A stretch of 41,980 nucleotides of DNA, from NCBI GenBank assembly GCA_020718845.1, contig DYRG01000024.1, positions 1-41,980 of the forward strand, read 5' to 3'. The position numbers and the translations under genes are program-made. Under the pieces are notes generated by a model that was given only the letters and a program-made list of their open reading frames with translations, did no database searches and was not told the DNA's origin. The stretch's first letter is position 1. Each line of letters opens with the position of its first letter. This document shows, one piece after another, positions 14,063 through 28,495 of the stretch. Origin of the DNA: Thiomargarita sp. Lineage in GTDB: Bacteria > Pseudomonadota > Gammaproteobacteria > Beggiatoales > Beggiatoaceae.

Positions 14063-14095
14063 ATACTTGACTGATTTAGTGGGATAAGTAACAAT
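14063..14095 (+). promoter_or_regulatory. iscR promoter with IscR type 1 site
   Basis: The stretch 14063-14086 starts ATACTTGACTGATTTAGT and ends GGGATA, close to the E. coli IscR type 1 consensus (ATASYYGACTRWWWYAGTC...). It overlaps a -35 TTGACT (14067-14072), and AACAAT (14090-14095) lies at the 17-bp -10 spacing. This fits autorepression by [2Fe-2S]-IscR as in E. coli; binding itself is inferred. Confidence 0.75.
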
Positions 14096-14141: not shown

Positions 14142-14627
14142 ATGAGATTGACCACAAAAGGTCGTTATGCTGTGACCGCGATGTTGGATTTAGCCTTAAA
14201 TAGCACACAAGGTCCGATTACACTCGCTGATATTTCAAAAAGACAAGGAATGTCATTATCTTACTTAGAACAACTTTTTTCAAGATTGCGCAAAAAAGCA
14301 CTCGTCGATAGCGCACGCGGACCGGGCGGTGGATACCGTTTGAGCCGTGACGCGCACCAAATTGCGGTCGCCGACGTGATCACCGCCGTCGATGAAAATG
14401 TCGACGCAACTCGTTGTCAAGGCAAGCAAAATTGCCAAGATTCAAATGAATGTTTAACACACGAATTGTGGGTCGATTTGAGTGAACAAATCCATGATTT
14501 TCTTAGTAAAATTTCGCTCGGCGAATTGGTTGATCGTAGCCACGACCGCCCCAAACAAGAGTGTGAAGGCAAAAATAACGCTGACAAAACCGTGAAAAAA
14601 GTTCAGCGTTCTAAAGCAACTGCCTGA
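14142..14627 (+). CDS. iscR: Fe-S cluster assembly regulator IscR (Rrf2 family)
   Basis: 161 aa. N-terminal winged helix ([19 protein letters not shown]) and recognition region [18 protein letters not shown], with the GPGGGYRL wing. Cluster ligands Cys92, Cys98, Cys104 and His107 are at the E. coli positions. It senses [2Fe-2S] supply and represses isc when loaded. The extra lysine-rich tail ([13 protein letters not shown]) is common in proteobacterial IscR. Shine-Dalgarno AAGGGGG precedes ATG. First gene of the isc operon, 27 bp before iscS. Confidence 0.97.
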
Positions 14628-14654
14628 TTTTAATTAACTTTATGAGGTGCTGAG

Positions 14655-15869
14655 ATGCAATTGCCTATTTATCTGGATTATGCCGCCACTACGCCTGCCG
14701 ATCCGCGGGTTGCCGAAAAAATGATGGAATATCTGACACCTACGGGTAAATTCGGAAATCCCGCATCGCGTTCTCATTCGTTTGGATGGGAAGCCGAAGC
14801 CGCCGTCGAAGAAGCGCGGGAGAACGTTGCCGCGTTGATTAACGCCAATTCGAAAGACATCGTCTGGACATCGGGCGCGACCGAATCCAACAACCTCGCC
14901 ATCAAAGGCGCGGCGCATTTTTATCAGAAAAAAGGCAAACATCTCATCACTTGTAAAACCGAGCATAAAGCCGTGCTCGACACTTGCCGTCAATTAGAGC
15001 GCGAAGGTTTTGAGGTTACTTATCTCGATCCAGAACCTAACGGTTTGATTAATTTGAATAAATTGTCCGATGCAATCCGTAAAGACACCAGTTTAGTGAG
15101 TTTAATGCACGTCAATAATGAAATTGGCGTAATTGCGGATATTGCGGCGATTGGTGAGCTAACCCGTTCAAAAGGCGTGCTTTTTCATGTCGACGCAGCG
15201 CAAAGCACGGGCAAAGTTGCGATTGATGTTGAAAATATGCAAGTCGATTTGATTTCAATGTCTGCGCATAAAACCTACGGTCCAAAAGGCGTGGGCGCGT
15301 TGTATGTGCGCAGAAAACCTCGCGTCCGCATCGAACCTCAAACGCACGGCGGTGGACACGAACGCGGCATGAGATCGGGCACATTGGCGACGCATCAAAT
15401 CGTCGGAATGGGTGAAGCCTTTCGTTTAGCAAAATTAGAAATGGCAGAAGAACAAACCCGACTTTTAGCGTTAAGAAATCGTTTCTGGGATGGTTTGAAA
15501 GATTTAGAGGAAATTTATATCAACGGCGATTTAGAACATCGAATTGCTGGTAATTTAAATATTAGTTTTGCCTTTGTTGAAGGTGAATCGCTCATTATGG
15601 CATTGAAAGAACTTGCGGTTTCTTCGGGTTCGGCGTGCACTTCGGCAAGTTTAGAACCGTCGTATGTATTGAGAGCAATTGGTCGTCCCGATGAATTAGC
15701 GCACAGTTCAATTCGCTTTAGTTTTGGACGTTTCACCACTGTGGAAGAAATTGATTACGCAATTCCTTTAATTCGCAGTAAAATCAACAAATTACGCGAA
15801 CTCTCGCCTTTGTGGGATATGTATAAAGAAGGCATTGATTTAAATACAATTAAGTGGGATTCTCATTAA
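14655..15869 (+). CDS. iscS: Cysteine desulfurase IscS
   Basis: 404 aa, the standard length. PLP-binding Lys206 in [12 protein letters not shown] and the mobile-loop persulfide Cys328 in [14 protein letters not shown] carry E. coli numbering. It takes sulfur from L-cysteine and hands it to IscU, and to tRNA thiolation and other acceptors. Shine-Dalgarno GAGG lies 9 nt before the ATG. Cytoplasmic homodimer. Confidence 0.98.
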
Positions 15870-15886
15870 GTAATGTAGGAGGCTGT

Positions 15887-16270
15887 ATGTCTTATGGAAC
15901 TAAAGTATTAGAACATTATGAGAATCCTCGTAATGTCGGCGTTTTAAATAAAGACGATCCAAATGTAGGAACGGGAATGGTTGGTGCGCCCGCGTGTGGT
16001 GATGTCATGCGATTACAAATTCGTGTAAATGACAGCGGTATCATCGAGGAAGCAAAATTCAAAACTTATGGTTGCGGATCAGCGATTGCATCGAGTTCTC
16101 TTTTAACCGAATGGGTAATGGGAAAAACTTTAGAGGAAGCGGCGAAAATTAAAAACACCGAACTCGCAGAGGAACTTGCATTGCCACCCGTTAAAATTCA
16201 TTGCAGCGTTCTCGCCGAAAGTGCGATTAAAGCTGCGATCAAAGATTTTCAAGATAAACAAACAATTTAA
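15887..16270 (+). CDS. iscU: Fe-S scaffold protein IscU
   Basis: 127 aa from ATG 15887 (the frame opens at 15854, but AGGAGG at 15877-15882 selects [10 protein letters not shown]). Cluster ligands Cys37, Cys63 and Cys106, plus the cluster-release Asp39 (ACGD), are all present. LPPVK (99-103) is the HscA recognition motif. It lies 17 bp after iscS. Confidence 0.98.
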
Positions 16271-16281
16271 AGGAAAGAACC

Positions 16282-16605
16282 ATGAGCATTTCTTTAACTG
16301 AAAACGCCGCTAAACATATTCGTAAATCATTAGATAAACGAGGAAAAGGTATTGGTTTACGTTTAGGCGTTAAAACCAGTGGTTGTTCTGGAATGGCTTA
16401 TACTTTAGAATTTGCCGATCAATTAGAAGAACAAGACCAAGTCTTTGAATCTCAAGATGTAAAAGTCATCATTGATCCTAAAAGTCTGGTGTATTTGAAT
16501 GGCACTGAATTAGATTATACTCGTGAAGGTTTGAACGAAGGTTTCAAATTCAATAATCCTAACGTTCAAAATACCTGCGGTTGTGGAGAGAGTTTTACGG
16601 TTTAA
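16282..16605 (+). CDS. iscA: A-type Fe-S carrier IscA
   Basis: 107 aa, E. coli length. The three invariant cysteines are Cys35 (SGCSGMAY), Cys99 and Cys101 (NTCGCGESF). It receives or delivers clusters or iron downstream of IscU. It starts 11 bp after iscU with Shine-Dalgarno AAAGGA. In the usual isc order hscB would follow directly; here it is 2.5 kb away. Confidence 0.97.
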
Positions 16606-16611
16606 GTTTTA

Positions 16612-16645
16612 GGTAGCGGTGCATTTACTATTCTGCATCACTACC
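16612..16645 (+). terminator. Strong hairpin after iscA
   Basis: GGTAGCGGTGCA (16612-16623) and TGCATCACTACC (16634-16645) form a 12-bp stem with one mismatch and one G-U pair. It is followed by CAAATTTTAT. It could end most iscRSUA transcripts before the inserted genes. The T-run is short, so an attenuator or mRNA-stabilising role is possible. Confidence 0.5.
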
Positions 16646-16698
16646 CAAATTTTATATGGTTCTCTAAATGACTGGTTTTATTTCGGGAGGGTGTTTTT

Positions 16699-17364
16699 AT
16701 GGCGATGAATAGAGTTGTTGTTTCTTGTGCAATGGTGTTGGGTGTTTTAAATGCGGCGAGTGTTCATGCGGCAGAAATAACCAAAGTGGATTTGAATGCA
16801 ATCTTAGGTGCAATTGATGTTAATTTACCTTCTTTGATGGGTGACTGTGCTTCACCGATTGATCGTGGAATACTCCCTTATCCGTATGAAAATTTGACTG
16901 GTAATGGTCTTTTCTTTCACTGGGAAGATAAAAATTATTATACACCTTACAAGGAATTTTATGATAAGACGTTCAATTATTCTCAGCAAGTACTAAAAAT
17001 GATGAATAACGAGGCTTTTGTAAATCATAATCTTTCGCTTTATGGGCTTGAAAATAAACTTAGTCAATCAGAGAAAGTTACATGTTTAACTTATAGTGGA
17101 AAGATTAAAGATTTAACTTTTAATTATGATAAAAATACTCGTAAAACTTCTGCTCAATATACACAACAATTGGATAATGGTAAGTTTGACGTTTATACTT
17201 CTCCATCGGTTGATGAAAATGGGAGAGTGCAGCAAGTTTTTCAATTCAGAACCAATGACAATACAATTCATGATGGGCTTTCTGTAGAGGATACGTTAAA
17301 AGTTATGAAAGATAACAATCCTTATGCGAATGGTTTGCCCACCGTAGTTGAATCTCCAATGTAA
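16699..17364 (+). CDS. Secreted protein of unknown function
   Basis: 221 aa. Signal peptide NRVVVSCAMVLGVLNAASVHAA with a predicted cut before EITKVD. The mature part is polar and aromatic-rich (YPYENLTGNGLFFHWEDKNYYTPYKEFYDK), with two cysteines (GDCASP and VTCLTY) that could form a periplasmic disulfide. GGAGGG 8 nt upstream supports ATG 16699; ATG 16705 is the alternative. I do not recognise the family. It is the first gene of the block separating iscA from hscB and has no evident Fe-S connection. Confidence 0.7.
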   Translation: MAMNRVVVSCAMVLGVLNAASVHAAEITKVDLNAILGAIDVNLPSLMGDCASPIDRGILPYPYENLTGNGLFFHWEDKNYYTPYKEFYDKTFNYSQQVLKMMNNEAFVNHNLSLYGLENKLSQSEKVTCLTYSGKIKDLTFNYDKNTRKTSAQYTQQLDNGKFDVYTSPSVDENGRVQQVFQFRTNDNTIHDGLSVEDTLKVMKDNNPYANGLPTVVESPM

Positions 17365-17513
17365 AGATAGATGCATTTTCTCGTTCTCCCGCACGATAGT
17401 TATTAAGGAATAAAAAGAGAAAAGGTCGTAAATCCCCTCCTAAAAGAAGGCGGATGTAACCGCATCATTTATTTGAGGATTTAATGTAGTTTTGTTTTTA
17501 GAAAGGAATGACA

Positions 17514-17765
17514 ATGATAACTAAACAACAACTTTATGCAGAAATTGACAATATTAGTGAAGAAAATCTTGATGATTTTTATCAATTACTAAAACATTTC
17601 ATTCAGACAAAACAAAAAACTAAGAAAGCAGGATTATTAAGTCGTTTACAACCAATCAAAATCGATGCGCCTGAAGATTTCACCACAAACCTCGATTTTT
17701 ATATGAACGGTAGCAAAGATGCAATAGCCAATCTTCGTTTCTTCAACATTCTATTTTTTAGATAA
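17514..17765 (+). CDS. Small antitoxin-like protein
   Basis: 83 aa starting MITKQQLYAEIDNISEENLDDFYQLLKHF, a helical N-terminus typical of small DUF2281-like or VapB-type antitoxins. The C-terminus (APEDFTTNLDFYMNG) resembles the disordered toxin-binding tails of such proteins. No toxin gene follows directly. AAAGGA gives good spacing to ATG 17514, although ATG 17508 is in frame. Assignment is tentative. Confidence 0.5.
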   Translation: MITKQQLYAEIDNISEENLDDFYQLLKHFIQTKQKTKKAGLLSRLQPIKIDAPEDFTTNLDFYMNGSKDAIANLRFFNILFFR

Positions 17766-17778
17766 GAGATTAAATAAG

Positions 17779-18225
17779 ATGAATGCGTTACAATTAGAAT
17801 ATGATCAGGATTTCTACAGTTGGATTTATAAAAACATTGATTTATTAAAACAACGTAAATTCTCAGAAATCGACGTGGATATTTTAATTGATGAATTAGA
17901 AAGCATGGCAAAACGTGATAGACGAGAATTAACCAGCCGTTTAATGATTTTAATTGCGCATTTATTAAAATGGCAATTTCAACCCGAACAACGTAGTGGA
18001 AGCTGGCAGGGTTCAATTGATGAACAACGTGTTAAAATTGTTAAACAACTTGAAGAAAGCCCCAGTCTTAAAAATCAATTAATTGAAGGCATTAAAGCTG
18101 CCTTTCCTGATGCTTTAAAACTTGCAATAAAAGAAACAAAATTACCTTCTAAAATGTTTCCCAAAGAATGCCCCTATTCAATGGAACAACTGTTAGATGA
18201 AGATTTCTATCCTCATATCCAATAG
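17779..18225 (+). CDS. DUF29 family protein
   Basis: 148 aa. The pattern YDQDFYSWIYKNIDLLKQRKFSEIDVD, followed by LIDELESMAKRDRRELTSRL and LLKWQFQPEQRSGSWQGSI, is that of DUF29 proteins. These are common in cyanobacteria and sulfur bacteria. No catalytic motif is known to me and no function is assigned. It starts 13 bp after the antitoxin-like gene. Confidence 0.8.
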   Translation: MNALQLEYDQDFYSWIYKNIDLLKQRKFSEIDVDILIDELESMAKRDRRELTSRLMILIAHLLKWQFQPEQRSGSWQGSIDEQRVKIVKQLEESPSLKNQLIEGIKAAFPDALKLAIKETKLPSKMFPKECPYSMEQLLDEDFYPHIQ

Positions 18226-18234
18226 GACAAAAAT

Positions 18235-18282
18235 ATGAATTGGCAAGAAGTAATTGAACATTCCTTAATAAGAGTTACTTAA
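18235..18282 (+). pseudogene. Truncated start of an Uma2-like gene
   Basis: ATG 18235 encodes only MNWQEVIEHSLIRVT and stops. MNWQEVxEHP is a common opening of Uma2-type PD-(D/E)XK proteins in related bacteria, so this may be a 5' stub left by deletion. It lies 9 bp after the DUF29 gene and 3 bp before the DUF2442 gene. Confidence 0.4.
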
Positions 18283-18285
18283 AAA

Positions 18286-18519
18286 ATGACTTGTAACGTA
18301 AAAAATATTTCTAAGCATGGGATTTGGTTATTAGATAAAAATCAAGAATGCTTTATGCCTTTTGAATCTTTTCCTTGGTTTAAACAAGCGAGTGTAGAAA
18401 ATATATTACAAGTTGAGGAAATCTCGCCTGATCATTTTTATTGGTCAGCATTAGATATTGATTTAACACTTGAAATGATAAAACATCCAGCACGTTTCCC
18501 ATTACAGGCATTATTGTAA
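18286..18519 (+). CDS. DUF2442 domain protein
   Basis: 77 aa. NISKHGIWLLDKNQECFMPFESFPWFKQAS and FYWSALDIDLTLEMIKHPARFPL match the DUF2442 layout. This family is often the antitoxin-like partner of DUF4160. No DUF4160 partner is adjacent; only the truncated stub precedes it. Confidence 0.75.
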   Translation: MTCNVKNISKHGIWLLDKNQECFMPFESFPWFKQASVENILQVEEISPDHFYWSALDIDLTLEMIKHPARFPLQALL

Positions 18520-18539
18520 ATTTAGGGAGGGAGTTTTTT

Positions 18540-18761
18540 ATGTTATTAGCCGAGAAAATTCAACAACGGGTTTCACAATTACCCAATAGTTTGCAATCAG
18601 AAATTATTGATTTTATTGATTTTATTGAATGCAAATATAAAGCAAAAATTTGTCACATAAATGAAAAAAGTGATAATTTTTTAGATGAGTTAATTAAAAA
18701 TCCTCGTAAAGTAAATTCTTTTAAGTTATATAGTAGAGAAGAAATTTATGATGATAGATAG
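18540..18761 (+). CDS. DUF2281-like antitoxin (VapB-type)
   Basis: 73 aa. LLAEKIQQRVSQLPNSLQSEIIDFIDFIECKY is the helical dimerisation part seen in DUF2281 antitoxins. The tail NPRKVNSFKLYSREEIYDDR would bind the toxin. AGGGAGGG Shine-Dalgarno. Its 3' end overlaps the PIN toxin gene by 14 bp, the classic coupled antitoxin-toxin order. Likely autoregulates the pair. Confidence 0.75.
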   Translation: MLLAEKIQQRVSQLPNSLQSEIIDFIDFIECKYKAKICHINEKSDNFLDELIKNPRKVNSFKLYSREEIYDDR

Positions 18762-19158
18762 TGTATTTGTAGACAGTAACATTTGGTTATATGCTTTTTT
18801 GGATAAACAGGATAAGCAAAAACAGTTAATTGCCCAAAATATTGTACAAACTCAAAATATAATTGTAAGCGTGCAAATTATTAATGAGGTTTGTTATCAA
18901 TTGTATAGAAATAAAATATTTTCAGAAGATGAGTTAAAAAGATTAATTGCTGGATTTTATGAAAAATACCAAATTATCGGGTTAGAACAAGACATTTTAA
19001 TTGCTGCAACTGAGTTAAGAAAAAATCGTAAGTTTTCATTTTGGGATAGTTTAATTGTTGCTTGTGCATTAAAAACAAGTTGCTCAGTTTTATACTCAGA
19101 AGATATGCAACATGGTTTTATAATAGATCAATTGCAAATTATTAACCCATTTCTATAA
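18748..19158 (+). CDS. PIN-domain toxin (VapC-like)
   Basis: 136 aa. PIN-fold acidic residues appear in order: VFVDSNIWLYAFLD (Asp near residue 9), IINEVCYQL (Glu), FSFWDSLIVACAL (Asp near 99) and SEDMQHG (Asp near 118). Such proteins are Mg-dependent ribonucleases acting on tRNA, rRNA or mRNA and are held silent by the upstream antitoxin. hscB begins 10 bp after its stop, so the pair is transcriptionally embedded in the isc locus. Confidence 0.82.
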   Translation: MMIDSVFVDSNIWLYAFLDKQDKQKQLIAQNIVQTQNIIVSVQIINEVCYQLYRNKIFSEDELKRLIAGFYEKYQIIGLEQDILIAATELRKNRKFSFWDSLIVACALKTSCSVLYSEDMQHGFIIDQLQIINPFL

Positions 19159-19168
19159 GTTGTATAAT

Positions 19169-19666
19169 ATGAACTATTTTGAGTTATTACATTTGCCGAT
19201 GGATTTTGAGGTAGATTTGGCGGTTTTGAATGAGAATTATCGGCAAGTTCAAAAAACTGTGCATCCTGATAATTTTGCAATGGGAAGCGATGCCGAACGT
19301 CGTTTCGCAATGGAGCAAACCACCGAATTAAATCAAGCATTACAAACTCTTAAATCTCCTTTGAAAAGAGCGCAATATTTATTGCAATTGAATGGTTTTG
19401 AATATCAAGAAGGCGTTAAAAACATTGCGGAAGATTTTTTATTCGAGCAATTAACTTTGAGAGAAACTTTATCAGAAATCAATGATTTTACCGAATTAAA
19501 TGTTTTCTTAGCTGAGTTAGAAAACAAGATTCAAAATTTATTAAATGAATTTAAGCAATTTTATCAAAACAAAGCATTACATTCCGCGCAAGAAACCGTC
19601 GATAAATTACAGTTTCTCTACAAATTACACGAACAAGCCATGCAATTAGAAGAAACGCTGGCTTAA
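19169..19666 (+). CDS. hscB: J-domain co-chaperone HscB
   Basis: 165 aa from ATG 19169 (the frame opens at TTG 19160). Starts NYFELLHLPMDFEVD, typical of HscB. HPD motif at residues 32-34 (KTVHPDNF) stimulates the HscA ATPase, and the C-terminal helical bundle binds IscU. It has no Shine-Dalgarno of its own and lies just behind the PIN gene, so it may depend on read-through or coupling. Confidence 0.95.
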   Translation: MNYFELLHLPMDFEVDLAVLNENYRQVQKTVHPDNFAMGSDAERRFAMEQTTELNQALQTLKSPLKRAQYLLQLNGFEYQEGVKNIAEDFLFEQLTLRETLSEINDFTELNVFLAELENKIQNLLNEFKQFYQNKALHSAQETVDKLQFLYKLHEQAMQLEETLA

Positions 19667-19681
19667 AAGGGCATTTCTCCA

Positions 19682-21535
19682 ATGGCATTGTTACAAATAA
19701 GTGAACCAGGATTAAGTTGCGCGCCCCATCAACATCGTTTGGCGGCGGGGATTGATTTAGGAACGACGCATTCGTTGGTCGCGTGTGTGCGCAGTGGCGT
19801 TTGCGAAACTCTGCCCGACGAACAGGGGCGACATTTATTGCCATCGGTCGTGCATTATCAGACGGGCGGGGGCTGCCAAGTTGGCTACGAAGCGCAAATT
19901 TTTGCCGATGCCGATCCTCTAAATACGATTGCGTCGGTGAAACGTTTGATGGGACGCGGATTAGCAGATGTCAAAGCAATCGGATCGCGCTTACCCTATG
20001 ATTTTGTTGAAGAATCTGGAATGCCACGTTTAAAAACGGCAGCAGGTTTGAAAAGCCCCGTTCAAACATCGGCACGAATTTTATGGGAATTAAAAACCCG
20101 TGCAGAACAATCACTTGGCGGCGATTTGACGGGCGTGGTGATCACCGTTCCCGCGTATTTTGACGATGCCCAACGCCAATCCACCAAAGATGCCGCAACC
20201 TTAGCAGGGTTAAAAGTGTTGCGTCTTTTAAGCGAACCGACGGCGGCAGCGATTGCGTATGGTCTTGATAAACAAGCAAAAGGTATTTACGCAATTTACG
20301 ATTTAGGCGGCGGAACATTTGATATTTCGATTTTGAGATTGCAACGCGGCGTGTTCGAAGTGTTGGCGACGGCGGGCGATTCGGCGTTGGGCGGCGATGA
20401 TTTTGATCGTGAAATTGCCCATTGGATCATGCAACAAGCTGAAATTCCTGAAGATGCAGCGCACACGCGAATTCGAAGTATTTTAACTATTGCACGTCAG
20501 GCAAAAGAAAAACTCACCGATCAAGAAAGCTATCCCATTGAATTTGAAGGCTGGTGTGGTTCGTTAAGCCGTTCACAATTAGAACAACTCTTAAAACCCC
20601 TCATTCAAAAAACCCTTCCCGCGTGTCGACGAGCATTACGCGATGCTGGCTTAAATAATCAAGATATTCAAGAAGTTGTGATGGTCGGTGGTTCGACTCG
20701 AGTGCCGTTGGTTCGCAAAATGGTCGAGGACTTTTTCCAACGTCCTCCGCACGTCGATATTGACCCTGATAAAGTCGTGGCGATTGGCGCGGCAATTCAA
20801 GCCGATATTTTGGCGGGCAATAAACCCGACTCTGAGATGCTTTTGTTGGATGTCACGCCGTTGTCGTTGGGTTTGGAAACGATGGGTGGATTGGTGGAAA
20901 AGATTATTCCGCGCAACACCCCGATTCCGACCGCCAAAGCTCAAGATTTCACGACATTCAAAGATGGTCAAACCGCGATGGCGTTGCATATTTTGCAAGG
21001 CGAACGCGAATTAGTGACGGATTGTCGGTCGTTAGCGCGATTTGAATTGCGAGGATTGCCGCCGATGGTTGCGGGCGCGGCGCGAATTCGTGTGACTTTT
21101 CAAATAGATGCAGATGGTTTATTAAGCGTCACCGCCCAAGAACAAGCCAGCGGCATTAAAAGCGAAATCGTCGTCAAACCCTCATACGGATTAAGTGATA
21201 ACGACATCGAACAAATGCTCCGTGACGCGCTCGATCACGCAAATGACGATGTGGAAACGCGCAATTTACGCGAGCAACAAGTCGAAGCTGATAGAGTAAT
21301 CAATGCGTTACGCGCCGCTTTGAAAGCAGATGGTCATAAATTATTGCGCAAAGACGAATTCAACAATATCAACGCAGGTTTAGATAAATTGCTCAAAACA
21401 ACTCGAGGAAAAGATGCGGGCGCAATTGCACAAGCCATTGAAGAACTTAATAAAATTACTCAAACTTACGCTGCCCGTCGGATGGATGCTGCGATTTCTC
21501 AGGCAATGCAAGGTCATCGCGTCGATGAATTTTAA
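19682..21535 (+). CDS. hscA: Hsp70-type chaperone HscA
   Basis: 617 aa, usual length. [14 protein letters not shown] phosphate loop, [28 protein letters not shown] and [17 protein letters not shown] complete the Hsp70 nucleotide-binding domain. The substrate-binding domain and lid follow to residue 617. It works with HscB on IscU (LPPVK motif) to release clusters. It starts 15 bp after hscB. Codon and base use here is clearly more GC-rich than in the inserted genes upstream. No fdx or iscX follows. Confidence 0.97.
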
Positions 21536-21621: not shown

Positions 21622-21664
21622 AAAAAAAGCCCTTTCAATTCAAACTTGGAAGGGCTTTTTCTTT
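21622..21664. terminator. Bidirectional terminator after hscA
   Basis: AAAAAAAGCCCTT, a 15-nt loop and AAGGGCTTTTTCTTT. It serves hscA on the plus strand and the converging SLOG-SLATT gene on the minus strand. Nothing coding is seen in 21536-21621; fdx is absent. Confidence 0.85.
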
Positions 21665-21673
21665 ATTAATTTT

Positions 21674-23398
21674 CTATTTTGGCAAATCAAGCGGACGGTC
21701 ACGATGCAATAAAAGCCATTCACTATTTTCTTCTAAAGCGGCTTTACCTAATTCAAACAATAATTTCTGATAATGTTCTTTGTCTTTGCTATTTTTTAGT
21801 TCTTCATCTGCACGTTCAAACAATTCAACCATTGGTTCATACCGTTTTATATCATGTTCATATCCCATTTTCTCTGCATAACCGTCTAATGCTGCGCCAA
21901 TAGCGGGCAATAAAACCATTGCAATAATTAAACTGCTTTGTAATCCATGATAGTCATGTAAATAATGAGAAAAGATTAACAAAACACTTGCAACCAAAAA
22001 TCCACTTATGAAAAATACTGTAGTTGTAATTTCAAGCCATTTTAGAGTAAAGCGTTTTTCTTCCACTTGATTAGTAAAATACCCAATTTGTTTTTTTATC
22101 CACCTTTCATGCACTAAATCTTTGCATTCCTCTTGATTAACCCAATTATGCAAAGAAAGTGCTCTCAAACTACTTCTAATCCAACCTAATTCTCGGCGAT
22201 ACTTTCGTGAATAGTGATCGGCTAAAGATTCATTTAATCCACTTAATAGCCAAAAAACCTGAATGCGCATTGCTTCTGACAATGCTCGATAATGCAAATA
22301 TTTTAGATGAATTTCTTGCTTATTTGCTTGCCAAAGCATTAGATAAGCAACTAAAAATAAAATCAAATAAATAGCTAATAAATACAGAGGATGTCCCTCA
22401 ACTGCAACATTTAACCAAGGCGGATGAGCATATAATTCAATAGAGAAAGCCATTGCAATACCTAATAACAAAATATGCAAGATTGTTTTATCAGTAGGAC
22501 GATGATTTTCTACACTTAAAGCACTCGATACTTCATATAAACGAGTAATAGTTTGAAAGGCGGGCACTGTTCTTAACCGTTCAATTAAATCATTTTTAAA
22601 GATTGATTTAAATTTAATACGTCCATTATGCTCAACATATTTATCGACATCACAATTAAATTGTTCAATCAAGGTGAAATCTTTAATACGCAAATCCTTT
22701 AAGTCGGTTGTAAAATCACTAAGAGATTCTGGTGATAAAATACGGTATTCACCATAATTAAGTAATTGTTTGCTTTGAGGAAAACGTGGATCAGGGGCGC
22801 GCGAAACATAAATATGACAAACCTTTCCCGTATCGACAATATCTAATGGATTATTTGAAGGACGATATTTCTCTGGCAAACCTTTCATATCGCCTTTCAA
22901 ACGATATTGTAAGACTTGAGATGTTCCACCAACGGTTTCAAGTTCGATCCCATCCCATAAAGAAATTAAAATATGTGAATGTCGAGCAACATAAGCACCC
23001 ACAATTGCGTATTGTTTATGACGTGCTTCGCTATTTTTGATTTCAATTCCAGCGTTCAAAACAGGCAATTCAAAATGATCGGTTGCTTTCGCTAATAATT
23101 CATTAAATTCTTCTTTGCATTCTTTGGTTTTGAAATCACGGCGATATTCGCTTTCTGGTAAAGGAAATGGCACAATAAAACGGATATTTTCCTCAATCGC
23201 TACTTGAGCAACTAATCGATCCGCGCCTTCTGCTAAAGGTGAAATTAATAATAAAGGCGTGTGGGGATAATTGCTTCTAAAAAAATCAAAGACTTCTTTT
23301 ATTCTTTTTTTAAGCAATGGGATTTCATCGGGGTGCAAATTACGATGTCCTGTTACGCCAATCACCAAAGGAATTTTATCGTCAATTAAAGTATCCAT
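21674..23398 (-). CDS. SLOG-SLATT membrane protein, defence-effector candidate
   Basis: 574 aa. Residues 1-150 form a SLOG/DprA-like Rossmann domain: LVIGVTGHRNL, SPLAEGADRLVAQVA and SHILISLWDG are the nucleotide-binding signatures. A middle region (about 200-300) is unassigned. Hydrophobic helices follow at about 305-328, 338-358, 447-470 and 485-503. The tail ends ENSEWLLLHRDRPLDLP, the conserved finish of SLATT (DUF4231-like) domains. Comparative work has proposed SLOG as a nucleotide sensor and SLATT as a pore-forming effector in conflict systems. It neighbours a STAND-like gene, a nuclease-like gene and a toxin-antitoxin pair. Activity is inferred from domains only. Confidence 0.72.
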   Translation of the reverse strand: MDTLIDDKIPLVIGVTGHRNLHPDEIPLLKKRIKEVFDFFRSNYPHTPLLLISPLAEGADRLVAQVAIEENIRFIVPFPLPESEYRRDFKTKECKEEFNELLAKATDHFELPVLNAGIEIKNSEARHKQYAIVGAYVARHSHILISLWDGIELETVGGTSQVLQYRLKGDMKGLPEKYRPSNNPLDIVDTGKVCHIYVSRAPDPRFPQSKQLLNYGEYRILSPESLSDFTTDLKDLRIKDFTLIEQFNCDVDKYVEHNGRIKFKSIFKNDLIERLRTVPAFQTITRLYEVSSALSVENHRPTDKTILHILLLGIAMAFSIELYAHPPWLNVAVEGHPLYLLAIYLILFLVAYLMLWQANKQEIHLKYLHYRALSEAMRIQVFWLLSGLNESLADHYSRKYRRELGWIRSSLRALSLHNWVNQEECKDLVHERWIKKQIGYFTNQVEEKRFTLKWLEITTTVFFISGFLVASVLLIFSHYLHDYHGLQSSLIIAMVLLPAIGAALDGYAEKMGYEHDIKRYEPMVELFERADEELKNSKDKEHYQKLLFELGKAALEENSEWLLLHRDRPLDLPK

Positions 23399-23420
23399 TT
23401 GAGTGTTTTCCTTTCAAAGA

Positions 23421-24149
23421 TTAAAACGTGAGAATATTTTGAGAAGTTAATTCGAGACATTTGCCTTGTTGGGTCAATAAGAACAAACCTTGTTCTGCGG
23501 TTTTTTCTTTTAATTCGTCATAAGTGATCATGCTTGCGATGCCCGCATAGATTTTGTAATGAGCAAATTGAGGAAATAAGATTTTAAAATTAGGAATTTT
23601 TTTCTCTAACATTTGATCAACTAATTTTAAATGGGCTTTATTTTTAGTTTCGATAATTGCCAAAGAATCACCATTAATTAAAACCAAATCAAACTCATCT
23701 TGAATCTTACCTTTTGAACCGTGTAAATTACGATGAACGGTTTCAAATTTAATTCCCGCAATCATTGGTTTTTTCTTTAAACTCGTAAAGAAAAATTCTT
23801 CTGCCATTTCACCGCGATTATTGTTCACATCACCAAACAATTTTGCTATTTTGTTTAATTTAGCATCGGTTTTCGCCAATTGAGCATCGGTTTTAGCGAG
23901 TTGCGCATCGGTTTTTGCTAATTGAGCATCGGTTTTAGCGAGTTGCGCATCGGTTTGAGCCAATTGCGCATCGGTTTTGGCGGATTGAATAGCGAATTGT
24001 TCGGCGAGTTGTGCTAATTTGGCATCAGTTTGAGCCAATTGCACATCAGTTTTGGCGAGTTGTTCGTCGGTTTTGGCGGATTGAATGGCGAGGTTTTGAA
24101 CGCTTATAGCGATGTTTGCCACTAAATCTTTAAGTTCTTGATCTGTCAT
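23421..24149 (-). CDS. Coiled-coil PD-(D/E)XK-like protein with QLAKTDA repeats
   Basis: 242 aa from ATG 24149 (MTDQELKDLVANIA). AGGTGG 7 nt upstream favours this over the frame's earlier opening at 24185. Residues about 25-110 are a heptad coiled coil built from QLAKTDA/QLAQTDA units. The C-terminal half has EMAEEFFF, then DEFDLVLINGDSLAIIETKNKAH, matching the D...E-x-K nuclease core. Proteins of this design (possibly DUF3782) are multi-copy in Beggiatoa-like and cyanobacterial genomes. Cytoplasmic; substrate unknown. Confidence 0.7.
   Translation of the reverse strand: MTDQELKDLVANIAISVQNLAIQSAKTDEQLAKTDVQLAQTDAKLAQLAEQFAIQSAKTDAQLAQTDAQLAKTDAQLAKTDAQLAKTDAQLAKTDAKLNKIAKLFGDVNNNRGEMAEEFFFTSLKKKPMIAGIKFETVHRNLHGSKGKIQDEFDLVLINGDSLAIIETKNKAHLKLVDQMLEKKIPNFKILFPQFAHYKIYAGIASMITYDELKEKTAEQGLFLLTQQGKCLELTSQNILTF
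23859..23984 (-). repeat. 21-bp in-frame minisatellite (x6)
   Basis: Six contiguous 21-bp units of the type TTGxGCATCGGTTTTxGCxAx, each one coiled-coil heptad of the encoded protein. More diverged units extend to about 24090. The second and fourth units are identical in sequence. Confidence 0.88.
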
Positions 24150-24188
24150 GATTAACCACCTTGTTGAAGGCATATTATAATACAAGTT

Positions 24189-24230
24189 GTTTTAATTAAG
24201 AAAGTTTGCCGTGACATTGTTTGTGTTTTT
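24189..24230 (-). pseudogene. Orphan 3' end of a SEC-C protein gene
   Basis: On the minus strand this reads KKHKQCHGKLS and a stop. It is nearly identical over about 42 bp to the last codons of the TPR-SEC-C gene (25016-25057, [11 protein letters not shown] plus the following TTAATTAAAACAA). The rest of the gene is missing. Confidence 0.65.
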
Positions 24231-24260
24231 TAATACGGATAAACACCGATTAATTCAAAT

Positions 24261-24294
24261 AGATAAACACTGATGTTTTAATCCGTGTTTATCT
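24261..24294. repeat. Inverted repeat within degenerate GTGTTTATC motifs
   Basis: AGATAAACAC (24261-24270) pairs with GTGTTTATCT (24285-24294). Further relatives (ACGGATAAACACCGAT before it, CATCTGTGTTTTC after it) make a cluster of four related motifs between 24232 and 24330. It lies between the PIN gene and the SEC-C remnant. It has no T-run. Confidence 0.55.
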
Positions 24295-24345
24295 CTCTTT
24301 TAACTCATCTGCGTTCATCTGTGTTTTCTGATTATCCTCTAAATT

Positions 24346-24744
24346 TTATAGTAATGTAATAGGATATTTTAAATTGATCAGGTTTGCTTTATTGTAAATT
24401 CCTCTATCAAAAGTTGCAAATGTTTCTGCTTTATTAAAACAACCTGCCAAATGAAGAGCGTCGGCAAAATCCATTCCTTGTTGATGCCACTGTAGTGCTG
24501 AAATAATAGCAGCTTTATTTTCAATGCTAACATTATCTAAAGCAAGCAAGTTAGATAATGCAAATATAATTCTTTCAACCGAGAAATGATAGCTAAAACG
24601 CAAAACCCATTCGGTTTCTAAAATAACGGTTGTTGAAATAAAAATATGTTCTGAAAGAGCAAAAATTTGATACGCTTTTTGATATTGTTGCTCATCATCT
24701 CTTGTTAGAAAGCGAACGATAATATTCGTATCAATGGCGATCAT
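24346..24744 (-). CDS. PIN-domain toxin (VapC-like)
   Basis: 132 aa from ATG 24744 (the frame opens at 24762). MIAIDTNIIVRFLTRDD, TTVILETEWVLR, GMDFADALHLA and FATFDRGI provide the PIN acidic residues in order. A ribonuclease toxin is expected. The start overlaps the 3' end of the AbrB-type antitoxin gene by 14 bp, as in the pair near 18.7 kb, although the two toxins are clearly different in sequence. Confidence 0.85.
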   Translation of the reverse strand: MIAIDTNIIVRFLTRDDEQQYQKAYQIFALSEHIFISTTVILETEWVLRFSYHFSVERIIFALSNLLALDNVSIENKAAIISALQWHQQGMDFADALHLAGCFNKAETFATFDRGIYNKANLINLKYPITLL

Positions 24745-25003
24745 TATTTCCCCACTCTGCAATAATACCTTCCTCGATGGCTTTATCCATTTCTTCTAAG
24801 GTTTTGGGTTTGCCTTGATAAGCTAAACAACCCGCAACATCATCGATAGTTACTTTTTTGAGAAAAGTAGGCGCAGTTTTTAATAAAATACCTTGAGAAG
24901 TTAATTCAATTTCTAAGGTTTGTCCAATCGTTAAACGATAGGCTTCACAAATGGTTTCTGGAAGCGTGATTTTTCTATCTGGTGATAAAAGAACCGTTTG
25001 CAT
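24731..25003 (-). CDS. AbrB/MazE-type antitoxin
   Basis: 90 aa. TVLLSPDRKITLPETICEAYRLTIGQTLEIEL is a SpoVT-AbrB swapped-hairpin DNA-binding domain. The C-terminal part (DDVAGCLAYQGKPKTLEEMDKAI) should neutralise the PIN toxin. Excellent AAGGAG Shine-Dalgarno 8 nt before the ATG. Expected to repress its own promoter, which would lie in the 21 bp to the TPR gene stop or inside that gene. Confidence 0.82.
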   Translation of the reverse strand: MQTVLLSPDRKITLPETICEAYRLTIGQTLEIELTSQGILLKTAPTFLKKVTIDDVAGCLAYQGKPKTLEEMDKAIEEGIIAEWGNNDRH

Positions 25004-25024: not shown

Positions 25025-28000
25025 TTAAGAAAATTTGCCGTGACAGTGTTTGTATTTCTTTCCTGAACCGCACGGACATGGATCATTACGATTAATTTTA
25101 GTTGTTTCGTTTTTAAACCTGACAGGTTTCGAAAACCTGTCAGGTTTCTCTAGGTTTTTTGATGCCGCTAAACAACTCTCGTAATTCTCCTTATATAATT
25201 TTGTATCGGGATGTTCTTCTCCTAAAATTTTCCTAACAATCTTCAAACTTTCTTCATACAACGGCAAGGCTTGCTCGGGCTTTCCCATTGTTTTATACAA
25301 TAAAGCTAAATTGTTGAGATCAGTTGCAACTTTAGGGTGATTTCTACCATAAACTTTTTCATCTATTTTTAAGGCTTCTTCAAACAACGGCAAGGCTTTC
25401 TCATATTTTCCTTGAGAATAATATAAACCCGCTAAATTGTTGAGAGAACTGGCATAATAGGGATGCTGTGTGCCTAAGACTTCTTTATAAATCTTCAAAC
25501 TTTCTTCAAACAACGGCAAGGCTTCCTCATACTTTCCTTGAGAATAATATAAAATCGCCAGATTGTTGAGGCTGGTTGCAACATCGGGATGTTCTGTACC
25601 TAAGACTTTCTCCCTGATTTCTAAAGCCCTTAAATACAACGGCAAGGCTTCCTCATACTTTCCTTGATTTCTATATAATTCCGCCAGACCGTTGAGACTG
25701 GCTGCAACATCGGGATGTTCTTTTCCTAACACGTTCTCCCAGATTTCTAAAGCCCTTAAAGACAACGGCAAGGCTTCCTCATACTTTCCTTGATTCAAAT
25801 ATAAATCAGCCAGATTGTTGAGGCTTTGTGCAACATCGGGATGTTCTTTACCTAAGACTTTCTCCAAGATTTCTAAAGCCCTGACATACAACGGCAAGGC
25901 TTCCTCATACTTTCCTTGATTCTTATATAACAACGCCAGACTGTTGAGGCTTAATGCAACTAAAGGATGTTCTTTACCTAACACTTTCTCCCTGATTTCT
26001 AAAGCCCTTAAATACAACGGCAAGGCTTCCTCATACTTTCCTTGAGAATAATATAAAATCGCCAGATTGTTGAGGCTTTGTGCAACATCGGGATGTTCTT
26101 TACCTAAGACTTTCTCCCTGATTTCTAAAGCCCTTAAAGACAACGGCAAGGCTTGCTCATACTTTCCTTGAGAATGATATAAAGCCGCCAGATTGTTGAG
26201 GCTGGCTGCAACTTCAGGGTGATTTCTACCATAAACTTTTTCATCTATTTTTAAGGCTTCTTCAAACAACGGCAAGGCTTTCTCATATTCTCCTTTTGAT
26301 TTATATAAAATAGCCAACCCAGCTAAGGAAGTGGCAGTTTTCTCACTTTGTTTTCCAAAGCGTTTTTGATTTACTTTGAGGATTTGTCGACGCAAGATAG
26401 TTGTTGCCTGACCATAACGCCCCGCAGTTTCTAATAAATCCGCTAATTTTCCCGAATTCAAATACACGGGCGGACGTTTGGATAAATGTAATTTTCGCAT
26501 TAAATTAAACCAACGTTCTTTTAACCCTACTTTCAAAAAATCCCAAGCATAAATTTCCTCCATATCTTCATAATCAGAAACCTGCCGCCAATATTTCAAT
26601 AATTCATATTCATTATTATGCGAACTCATTAATGAAGCTGAACTAATGCAGGTTTTTAAATCTTCCCAGTGTTGCGCTTCAAATAAATGATGCGGTAATT
26701 CATTCGCAATTCTTTCATCGAGCGGTTGGGTTTTGAAATACATTGCCAAATCATAATGCGCAGCTTTTTTTAACTCTTCATTGTTCAAATAATGTTGTTC
26801 GACCGCTTGTTGTAAATAACTATGATAAAAATTAAGCAATCCATTACGATTAACCAATGCCAAGACTTGATCAAAAGCCGCCGAAATAATCAACCATTCA
26901 TATTGAGGAATATTAAGAATTTCTAATAATTCATGTTCAGACAAACCCCGTCGAGAAATCCAAATCAAACGCATTGCATTACAAATGCTCTCTTTACCAT
27001 AACTTTCCTCAAAACGTTGCAACACTTTAATGTATAACTCAGAAATGGTTTCCGCCGCTAAATAATGTTCTAATTGTTCCTTTAAACGAAGATGCTCACC
27101 CACCACTTGCATTTCTTTTAATAAAACTTTCAAATACAAAGGATTGAGCGTTTGCGGTTGTTTTGCAATCAATTTTAAATGATCAGAATGTAAATCTTTT
27201 CCGCCTAATTCACGCTGTAAAATGCTTTTAACAATTAAGTCACGTTCTTGAGCATTTAATAACGCAATTTCAAAAGATTGCCAATCTTTGCGTTGTTGTA
27301 AAATTTCAAATTGAGAATGATCGGTTAAAGTTGAAAGATACAAACGCACTTTCTCAGGAATAAAAGTCGGCAACCAGAGTAATTTTTGCGCCTCTTGTTC
27401 TAATTGATTTAACCCATCTAAAATCAACACTATTTTCTCTGGAACATTTGCTAACCATAACGGCAATTGTTTAATGAGTTTCTCTGTTGAGGTGGGCAAA
27501 TTTTCTTGCGTATAAATTAAAGGAAAACGGCTTTTTAATTCCTCAAATAATCGCCGCAATAAATGATCTAAATTCGTGCTTTCTGCGGAACTTCCAATGA
27601 AATGCCAAATAATAAAAGTATTAGGTGTTTTCTCTTGTAATTGAAATGCCCAATTTGCTAACAAAGAAGTTTTACCAGAACCCGATTCACCCACAATCAC
27701 CAACGGCAGGTTAGTTTCTACAAAATGTTGATCTAAACGTTGAAAATCGGTTTCTCTTTTCAAATAAACCCATTGTCTTGAATAGGCAAATCCATCGTGA
27801 CTTGATCGAGTGCGTTCTAATTCAGTGGGGATTTCTGATTCGGGAAAAAGTTCATCAACTACTGTTTTAAGATGCTCAAAAACTAAATCACTTAAATCCG
27901 TTGGTTTTTGATAATCCGTAATAGGTAAGTTTTTCTCTCGAATTTGTTGCTTTAATTGCTCTAAACGTTCTTTTTTAATCGGATCGGTTTCAGCAAATAA

Positions 28001-28198
28001 ATCTTCATTTTTTTCATCAAAACGTTTTGCAGGTGATAAACTTTCTAAAAATACTGCATCACGAAAATAGAAGTGCATGGTTTGATTGAGATTTTTATCA
28101 CCTTGTTCACGAAACAACGCATGATAAATTTCTAATTCTGTAACGCTCGATTCTGGATAATCTTTTAACCACTCAAATTCATCATAACGATTTGCCAA
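25025..28198 (-). CDS. NTPase-TPR-SEC-C protein, 3' part of a nonsense-split STAND gene
   Basis: Open for 1057 codons from TTG 28198, which is a poor start. P-loop [14 protein letters not shown] at about 170-180 and Walker [13 protein letters not shown] near 255 mark a NACHT/STAND-like NTPase. Next comes a helical region (about 370-600), then about nine 42-residue kinesin-light-chain-type TPRs (630-1000) and a C-terminal zinc-binding SEC-C motif [17 protein letters not shown]. The frame continues without shift into the DUF4062 gene upstream, separated by one TAA and one AAC codon. The N-terminus ([19 protein letters not shown]) is the normal continuation of DUF4062-NTPase proteins. STAND NTPases often act as defence sensors. 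A 33-bp palindrome is inserted near residues 1018-1028. Confidence 0.8.
25115..25147. repeat. 33-bp palindromic element inside a coding region (copy 1)
   Basis: Two perfectly complementary 15-nt arms, the left one AAACCTGACAGGTTT, separated by CGA. It lies in frame within the TPR-SEC-C gene and encodes about [11 protein letters not shown] between the last TPR and the SEC-C motif. It is identical base for base, and in orientation, to the copy at 41501-41533. Confidence 0.93.
25250..26330 (-). repeat. 126-bp tandem coding repeat (TPR units)
   Basis: The motif CAACGGCAAGGCTT recurs about nine times at 126-bp spacing (42 codons). Several neighbours are near-identical at DNA level (TCCTCATACTTTCCTTGA). 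This points to recent expansion or homogenisation of the TPR array. Confidence 0.85.
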
Positions 28199-28201
28199 GT
28201 T

Positions 28202-28495
28202 TTAATATTTTTCTCTCTTTTGAATGCCACCATAACGTTGCCCTAGAAATCCTAAAAAATATGGATGACAATTCTTTACTTCTATCAAACAAATTTCTAA
28301 CGCTTGTTCTAATTTTGTTTCATCTGGCACACCCCAAAACAAATTAACCGCCATAAATTCCACACTTCGCGTTTGACAAAGCCAACGAATGTGAGGAAAA
28401 ACCTTTTCTTCCAACACCTTACGATCTTCAAACATATCCGCAAATGTTGAAGAAACGAAAACCCGCAACGAACGATTTTGATAAATGGGGCGCAT
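28202..28495 (-). CDS. DUF4062 domain, 5' part of a nonsense-split STAND gene
   Basis: 97 aa. SLRVFVSSTFADMFEDRKVLEEKVFPHIRWLC is the hallmark of DUF4062, a TIR-like Rossmann domain. VNLFWGVPDE and CHPYFLGFLGQRYG complete it. In known DUF4062-NTPase proteins the chain continues through the position of this stop. Here TAA (28202-28204) is followed in the same frame by AAC and then the NTPase-TPR part. Either the gene is broken, the stop is read through, or two polypeptides cooperate. No strong Shine-Dalgarno is seen before ATG 28495. Confidence 0.8.
   Translation of the reverse strand: MRPIYQNRSLRVFVSSTFADMFEDRKVLEEKVFPHIRWLCQTRSVEFMAVNLFWGVPDETKLEQALEICLIEVKNCHPYFLGFLGQRYGGIQKREKY

Follow-up and report, generated by a model that had tools for sequence, protein, structure and literature searches.

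The isc operon of gammaproteobacteria, represented by that of Escherichia coli (locus L048 of the present comparison), has the order iscRSUA-hscBA-fdx-iscX. The isc locus of Thiomargarita sp. described here lies in a stretch of 41,980 nucleotides, referred to as the window, which is contig DYRG01000024.1 (C90) of assembly GCA_020718845.1, the source genome (G000; 2.98 Mb, 123 contigs). It has in common with the E. coli operon the core genes, their order and an IscR-type box before iscR, but its iscA and hscB are 2,563 bp apart, with accessory genes in the gap, and its fdx and iscX are on other contigs.

Part of the insert resembles type II VapBC modules, with which it shares a small upstream open reading frame overlapping the gene of a PIN-domain protein; it differs from them in that the antitoxin candidate scores below curated cut-offs, which makes the pair a putative module.

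Disruption of metabolic operons by mobile elements has been described for dsrA and hupL of Candidatus Thiomargarita nelsonii (PMC4853749). In both cases the hosts are related and accessory or mobile DNA interrupts core operons or genes, but iscU does not appear in that paper, and the insert described here bears genes and no recognised mobile element. A literature search found nothing on the present locus.

Layout of the locus and content of the insert

The genes iscRSUA (14142–16605) and hscBA (19169–21535) are all on the + strand. The first unit contains iscR (14142–14627; TIGR02010, 217.3 bits), iscS (14655–15869; 798 bits with an IscS model built in this analysis), an uninterrupted iscU (15887–16270; TIGR01999, 220.1 bits) and iscA (16282–16605; TIGR02011, 177.1 bits), in the usual order and, for the three TIGR models, over the cut-off. 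The second contains hscB (19169–19666; TIGR00714, 115 bits against a cut-off of 46.75) and hscA (19682–21535; TIGR01991, 891.7 bits, over the cut-off), which are intact and adjacent, with 15 bp between them. The separation of iscA and hscB, which the earlier note had put at about 2.5 kb, is confirmed at 2,563 bp (2,569 bp by model edges). The HscA records nearest to that of the source genome are from Thiomargarita, Parabeggiatoa, Venteria and Albibeggiatoa (70–74% identity). In a scan of family loci, the HscB of the source genome scored lowest of those detected (171 versus 188–232 bits), although the HscA beside it is ordinary.

The position 3′ of hscA is occupied not by fdx, in agreement with the earlier note, but by an intrinsic-terminator-like site (21624–21660, + strand) with a 15-pair stem, a loop of 7 and a T-rich tail, the only such site on the + strand between 13900 and 21800. 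An intact fdx, which that note had suggested looking for elsewhere, is found at C104:28966–29295 (TIGR02007, 177.9 bits, over the cut-off), and an intact iscX, which does not follow fdx, at C32:50359–50547 (PF04384, 107.2 bits, over the curated cut-off). The description of the locus as lacking fdx and iscX is therefore correct for the locus and incorrect for the organism.

Directly after iscA there is a hairpin (16612–16645, + strand). The stretch 16600–16660 folds at −16.1 kcal/mol (z −3.34), which none of 200 shuffles equalled, so that its strength is as first noticed; it has no T-run and is not called a terminator, and a search of the whole window with Rfam, hairpin included, gave no match at the gathering score.

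The insert genes are likewise on the + strand. The first (16699–17364) encodes a 221-residue protein with a signal-peptide-like start, which does look secreted, as had been proposed, but matches no Pfam or NCBIfam family; it is present in one of 40 family genomes, the source genome itself. The 85-residue open reading frame that follows (17508–17765) resembles an orphan antitoxin by its look only, with no convincing family over the cut-off. The presence of DUF29 and DUF2442 genes is borne out by matches to PF01724 (17779–18225; 176 bits) and PF10387 (18286–18519; 43.3 bits, over the cut-off), and between the two lies a 15-codon frame (18235–18282), read from the sequence and possibly an Uma2 remnant.

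The last two insert genes had been described as a VapB/PIN pair. The toxin-like gene pin (18748–19158) is over the cut-off (PF01850, 44.4 bits against 23.6) and is overlapped by 14 bases by the small upstream frame (18540–18761), whereas this VapB-like frame stays under the cut-offs, with 26.2 against 26.5 for PF10047 (DUF2281) and 28.1 against 60 for NF050009 (TA_VapB). The sole PADLOC result was a weak match of the same frame to a CARF model (E 0.0047), which was disregarded. The PIN protein has a full-length relative in the PDB, PcrIIC1 (8wmm, E 1.8e-11), and, read by eye against the PIN motif, it has the conserved acidic residues D9, E47, D100 and D119 of a PIN toxin. It ends at 19158, the stated 10 bp before hscB at 19169. 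From the 85-residue frame to hscA the successive spacings are 13, 9, 3 and 20 bp, the overlap, 10 and 15 bp. PIN genes occur at 31 places in the genome, so the position of pin next to hscB does not call for a particular explanation.

The insert genes are AT-rich (24–34% GC, compared with 45% for iscS and 48% for hscA), and the GC contents of iscA (35%) and hscB (33%) are near theirs. No transposase or integrase families were found in the insert. In a DNA search of 40 family genomes with the insert, the matches were scattered; most were to the DUF29 gene, some were to its other genes, none spanned the 2,563 bp, and no second place had the whole arrangement. Within the source genome the only DNA-level copies are of the DUF29 gene and a PIN stretch, both on contig C4, where the DUF29 and PIN C-terminal stretches are 68–71% identical to those of the insert. 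This DUF29 copy (C4:5768–6236), the only other one in the genome, lies about 13 kb from a PIN gene (18668–19060) that has decayed and contains two stops; both are related to the insert genes.

Downstream of the locus, on the − strand, the stretch 21674–25003 encodes a 574-residue protein with a weak SLATT_1 match below the cut-off, a 254-residue repeat-rich protein and a second PIN protein (24385–24738) with a small open reading frame beside its gene. Farther on, also on the − strand (25025–28495), are open reading frames of 1057 and 97 residues, 3 bp apart; by eye the shorter could be the beginning of a longer protein of NTPase type, perhaps in a broken frame.

Comparison with other isc loci

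A set of 73 further loci (L016–L088) was fetched by similarity to HscA; one of them, L080, is probably the contig of the family genome G008. Outside the family, the iscA-hscB gap is at most 269 bp in all 69 measurable loci and the iscU-iscA gap at most 234 bp in 66 of 66, and the hscA-fdx gap exceeds 500 bp in three of 72 (788–813 bp). The insertion in the source genome thus exceeds the background, where the iscA-hscB gap is never above 269 bp in the 69 measurable loci.

Within the family, the search for hscB covered 40 genomes, one of them the source genome and none of the others of its genus, and gave a match over the cut-off in 35. In 27 of these 35 iscA ends no more than 500 bp upstream of hscB, in seven, including the source genome, it does not, and one (G050), with 249 bp covered upstream of hscB, is counted neither way. 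The view that iscA and hscB are normally adjacent holds both outside and within the family, and the comparison with relatives that the earlier note had called for indicates that the insertion is not universal and probably not ancient. So far it is seen only in the lineage of the source genome and is one of several isc interruptions in the family.

The other broken iscA/hscB junctions hold different genes. The gap in G015 is 728 bp and contains a hemerythrin gene. No iscA was found upstream of hscB within 4917 bp in G020, 2398 bp in G021 and 8166 bp in G047, nor within 972 bp in G001 and 1,085 bp in G007, where contig ends limit the stretch. The genes at these places are a Schlafen/AlbA_2 fragment in G001, a PDDEXK_2 nuclease in G007, an LprI-domain protein in G020 and a gene that by eye is purM-like in G021; in G047 nothing was recognised. 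The operon is also broken between iscU and iscA (2.1 kb in G002) and between hscB and hscA (1.2 kb in G014, 1.0 kb in G043). The latter two genes are on different contigs in G005, G008, G019, G020 and G021, and in G005, G008 and G019 iscRSU, iscA-hscB and hscA-fdx are fully separate units. A full-length hscA was detected in 23 family genomes, and in 21 of them fdx lies no more than 100 bp beyond its 3′ end, the exceptions being the source genome and G020.

In the HscA tree the source genome groups with G013 and G015, its two nearest relatives (support 96/94). The tree has 24 inner branches, 14 of them weak, and its group table set broken rows only against the outgroup and left 17 rows ungrouped; the table is therefore no test of independence, and only this grouping is used. 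The gaps of 308 bp in G013, 728 bp in G015 and 226 bp in G045, which is of the same genus as G013, suggest that the iscA/hscB junction may have loosened before the insert genes of the source genome accumulated.

Interrupted iscU genes in relatives

Matches to iscU were obtained in 36 of the 40 family genomes. The gene is whole and over the cut-off in 25, carries a group I intron in nine and an intein in one, and is matched only below the cut-off in one (G004). Eight introns are confirmed by Rfam RF00028 with 52.5–91.9 bits (gathering score 50), at loci L181–L188, which belong in this order to G016, G046, G051, G006, G022, G017, G054 and G007; for the ninth, in G052 (C476), a match of 80.1 bits to the same family adjoins the 3′ fragment of iscU. 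In G006, G016, G022, G046 and G051 the intron directly follows the codons of Cys37-Gly38, and in G007, G017, G054 and probably G052 it lies a few codons before Cys106. The intein-bearing iscU (G021, locus L189) is an open frame of 483 residues, where the insert before Cys63 begins with Cys, ends with His-Asn and has weak Hint-domain matches below the cut-offs. The introns and the intein are thus mobile elements in a central gene, and each sits no more than a few codons from the codon of a conserved cysteine. No report of introns in bacterial iscU was found in the literature searched, and in the source genome no group I intron was present among the 37 of 448 candidates that were scored.

Where an iscU with an intron or intein is followed by about 1 kb or more of available sequence (G006, G007, G016, G017, G021 and G051), no iscA follows, and where iscU and iscA are no more than 500 bp apart (G000, G003, G010, G013, G014, G015, G018, G042 and G045), iscU is whole, the comparison being one of raw genomes that ignores relatedness. 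G006, rated 99% complete and one of the intron carriers, has no HscB and no isc-type ferredoxin over the cut-off, and its HscA-like matches are weak.

Transcription and origin of the split locus

The box before iscR (14063–14086, + strand), which resembles an IscR type-1 site, is the sole match in the window, with no mismatch to the family consensus and 0.03 matches expected. In 13 of the 14 family genomes scanned for it, a type-1-like box with at most five mismatches precedes iscR, the best in G020 having eight; the box model was built from these iscR sites, hence it is no evidence for them, and it describes the type-1 pattern only. The scan (family genomes G000–G054, loci L123–L143, L190–L196 and L225–L236) covered 300 bp upstream of 23 other starts, those of hscB, hscA, fdx and iscX of the source genome and 19 of iscA, hscB, hscA or fdx in relatives. 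In 22 of the 23 stretches no box beat the best of 200 shuffles, and the one exception, before hscB of G021, is marginal (13.1 versus 13.0). The stretch before hscB of the source genome scored −0.3, compared with 3.8 ± 3.0 in shuffles. The idea that an IscR box had moved with hscB was rejected, the window having one box. The detached units may have left direct type-1 IscR control.

The locus is best read, with a probability of about 0.8, as an ordinary isc operon opened in this lineage by accessory genes, with fdx and iscX moved, in a recurrent dispersal of the operon among genomes that carry many accessory genes. The iscRSUA-hscBA-fdx-iscX operon would have been opened at the iscA/hscB junction, where a patch of the antitoxin-like frame, the DUF29 gene, the stub, the DUF2442 gene, the VapB/PIN-like pair and the gene for the lineage-specific, probably secreted protein would have built up, and fdx and iscX would have been relocated elsewhere in the genome. 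None of the core genes is damaged in sequence, so the dispersed units probably still make up a working ISC pathway. The hscBA genes form the tail of a same-strand run and probably owe their transcription to read-through that starts at the iscR promoter, to promoters in the insert, or to both. The unbroken + strand run, with its sole terminator-like site after hscA, makes read-through from the IscR-box promoter possible, transcription from within the insert is possible too, and, given how closely pin, hscB and hscA follow one another on one strand, their co-transcription is plausible. The sequences show the gene order, the intact frames, the family comparison and the single IscR-type box at iscR, whereas the insertion history, the transcription and the function are inferred.

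The earlier note had proposed instead that expression of hscBA may depend on the toxin–antitoxin promoter, tying Fe-S chaperone supply to an addiction module; in such a circuit an autoregulated vapB-pin promoter would be the main driver of hscBA. The overlap of vapB and pin and the short distances through hscB to hscA, on one strand and with no + strand terminator-like site between, are in line with this, as are the hairpin separating iscA from the insert and the lack of an IscR-type box in the 300 bp before hscB. However, a T-run is missing from that hairpin, the genes on the same strand continue up to iscR, the VapB-like protein is below curated cut-offs, and promoter-like sites are not in excess in the region, where 19 are found compared with 21.2 ± 4.6 in shuffles, a chance level at which none was assigned. 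The whole arrangement occurs at no second place in the 40 family genomes, the other broken junctions holding different genes, and the proposal appears improbable. A promoter of hscBA itself at the 3′ end of pin, independent of iscR and of the toxin–antitoxin genes, is a possible but still unlikely explanation. Its candidates are a TATAAT (19163–19168) that abuts the ATG of hscB and a 9-of-12 promoter-like match at 19069–19096, and in several relatives a detached hscB or hscA must have some promoter; yet such matches are at chance level in an AT-rich region, and from a −10 box at the ATG one would expect either a leaderless transcript or a start inside hscB. The 123 contigs of the assembly, and the further accessory genes that adjoin the locus, could point to an artefact that joined two unlinked contigs and so produced the gap. 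This is very improbable, given the intact frames on both sides within a single contig, the DUF29 and PIN copies too distant for repeat collapse, and comparable breaks in the single-contig relatives G002 and G043.

Under the preferred reading, an operon opened by accessory genes, the layout is a local instance of the isc operon coming apart more widely in the family, and it probably does not represent a new control circuit. A bolder and rather doubtful extension is that the ISC system of the family has no single-operon control, with the IscR-type box only on the iscRSU or iscRSUA unit and the chaperone, carrier and ferredoxin units on nearby promoters, in the source genome that of the toxin–antitoxin module; if so, its Fe-S chaperone supply would follow the level of the antitoxin. 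One split locus is a minor matter, and the family-wide pattern is more useful: the operon is unbroken in almost all outside loci measured, yet in this single sulfur-bacterial family it is split at varied points, and nearly all scanned detached pieces have no IscR-type box nearby. The dispersed loci are natural replicates for the question of whether ISC stoichiometry needs one transcript.
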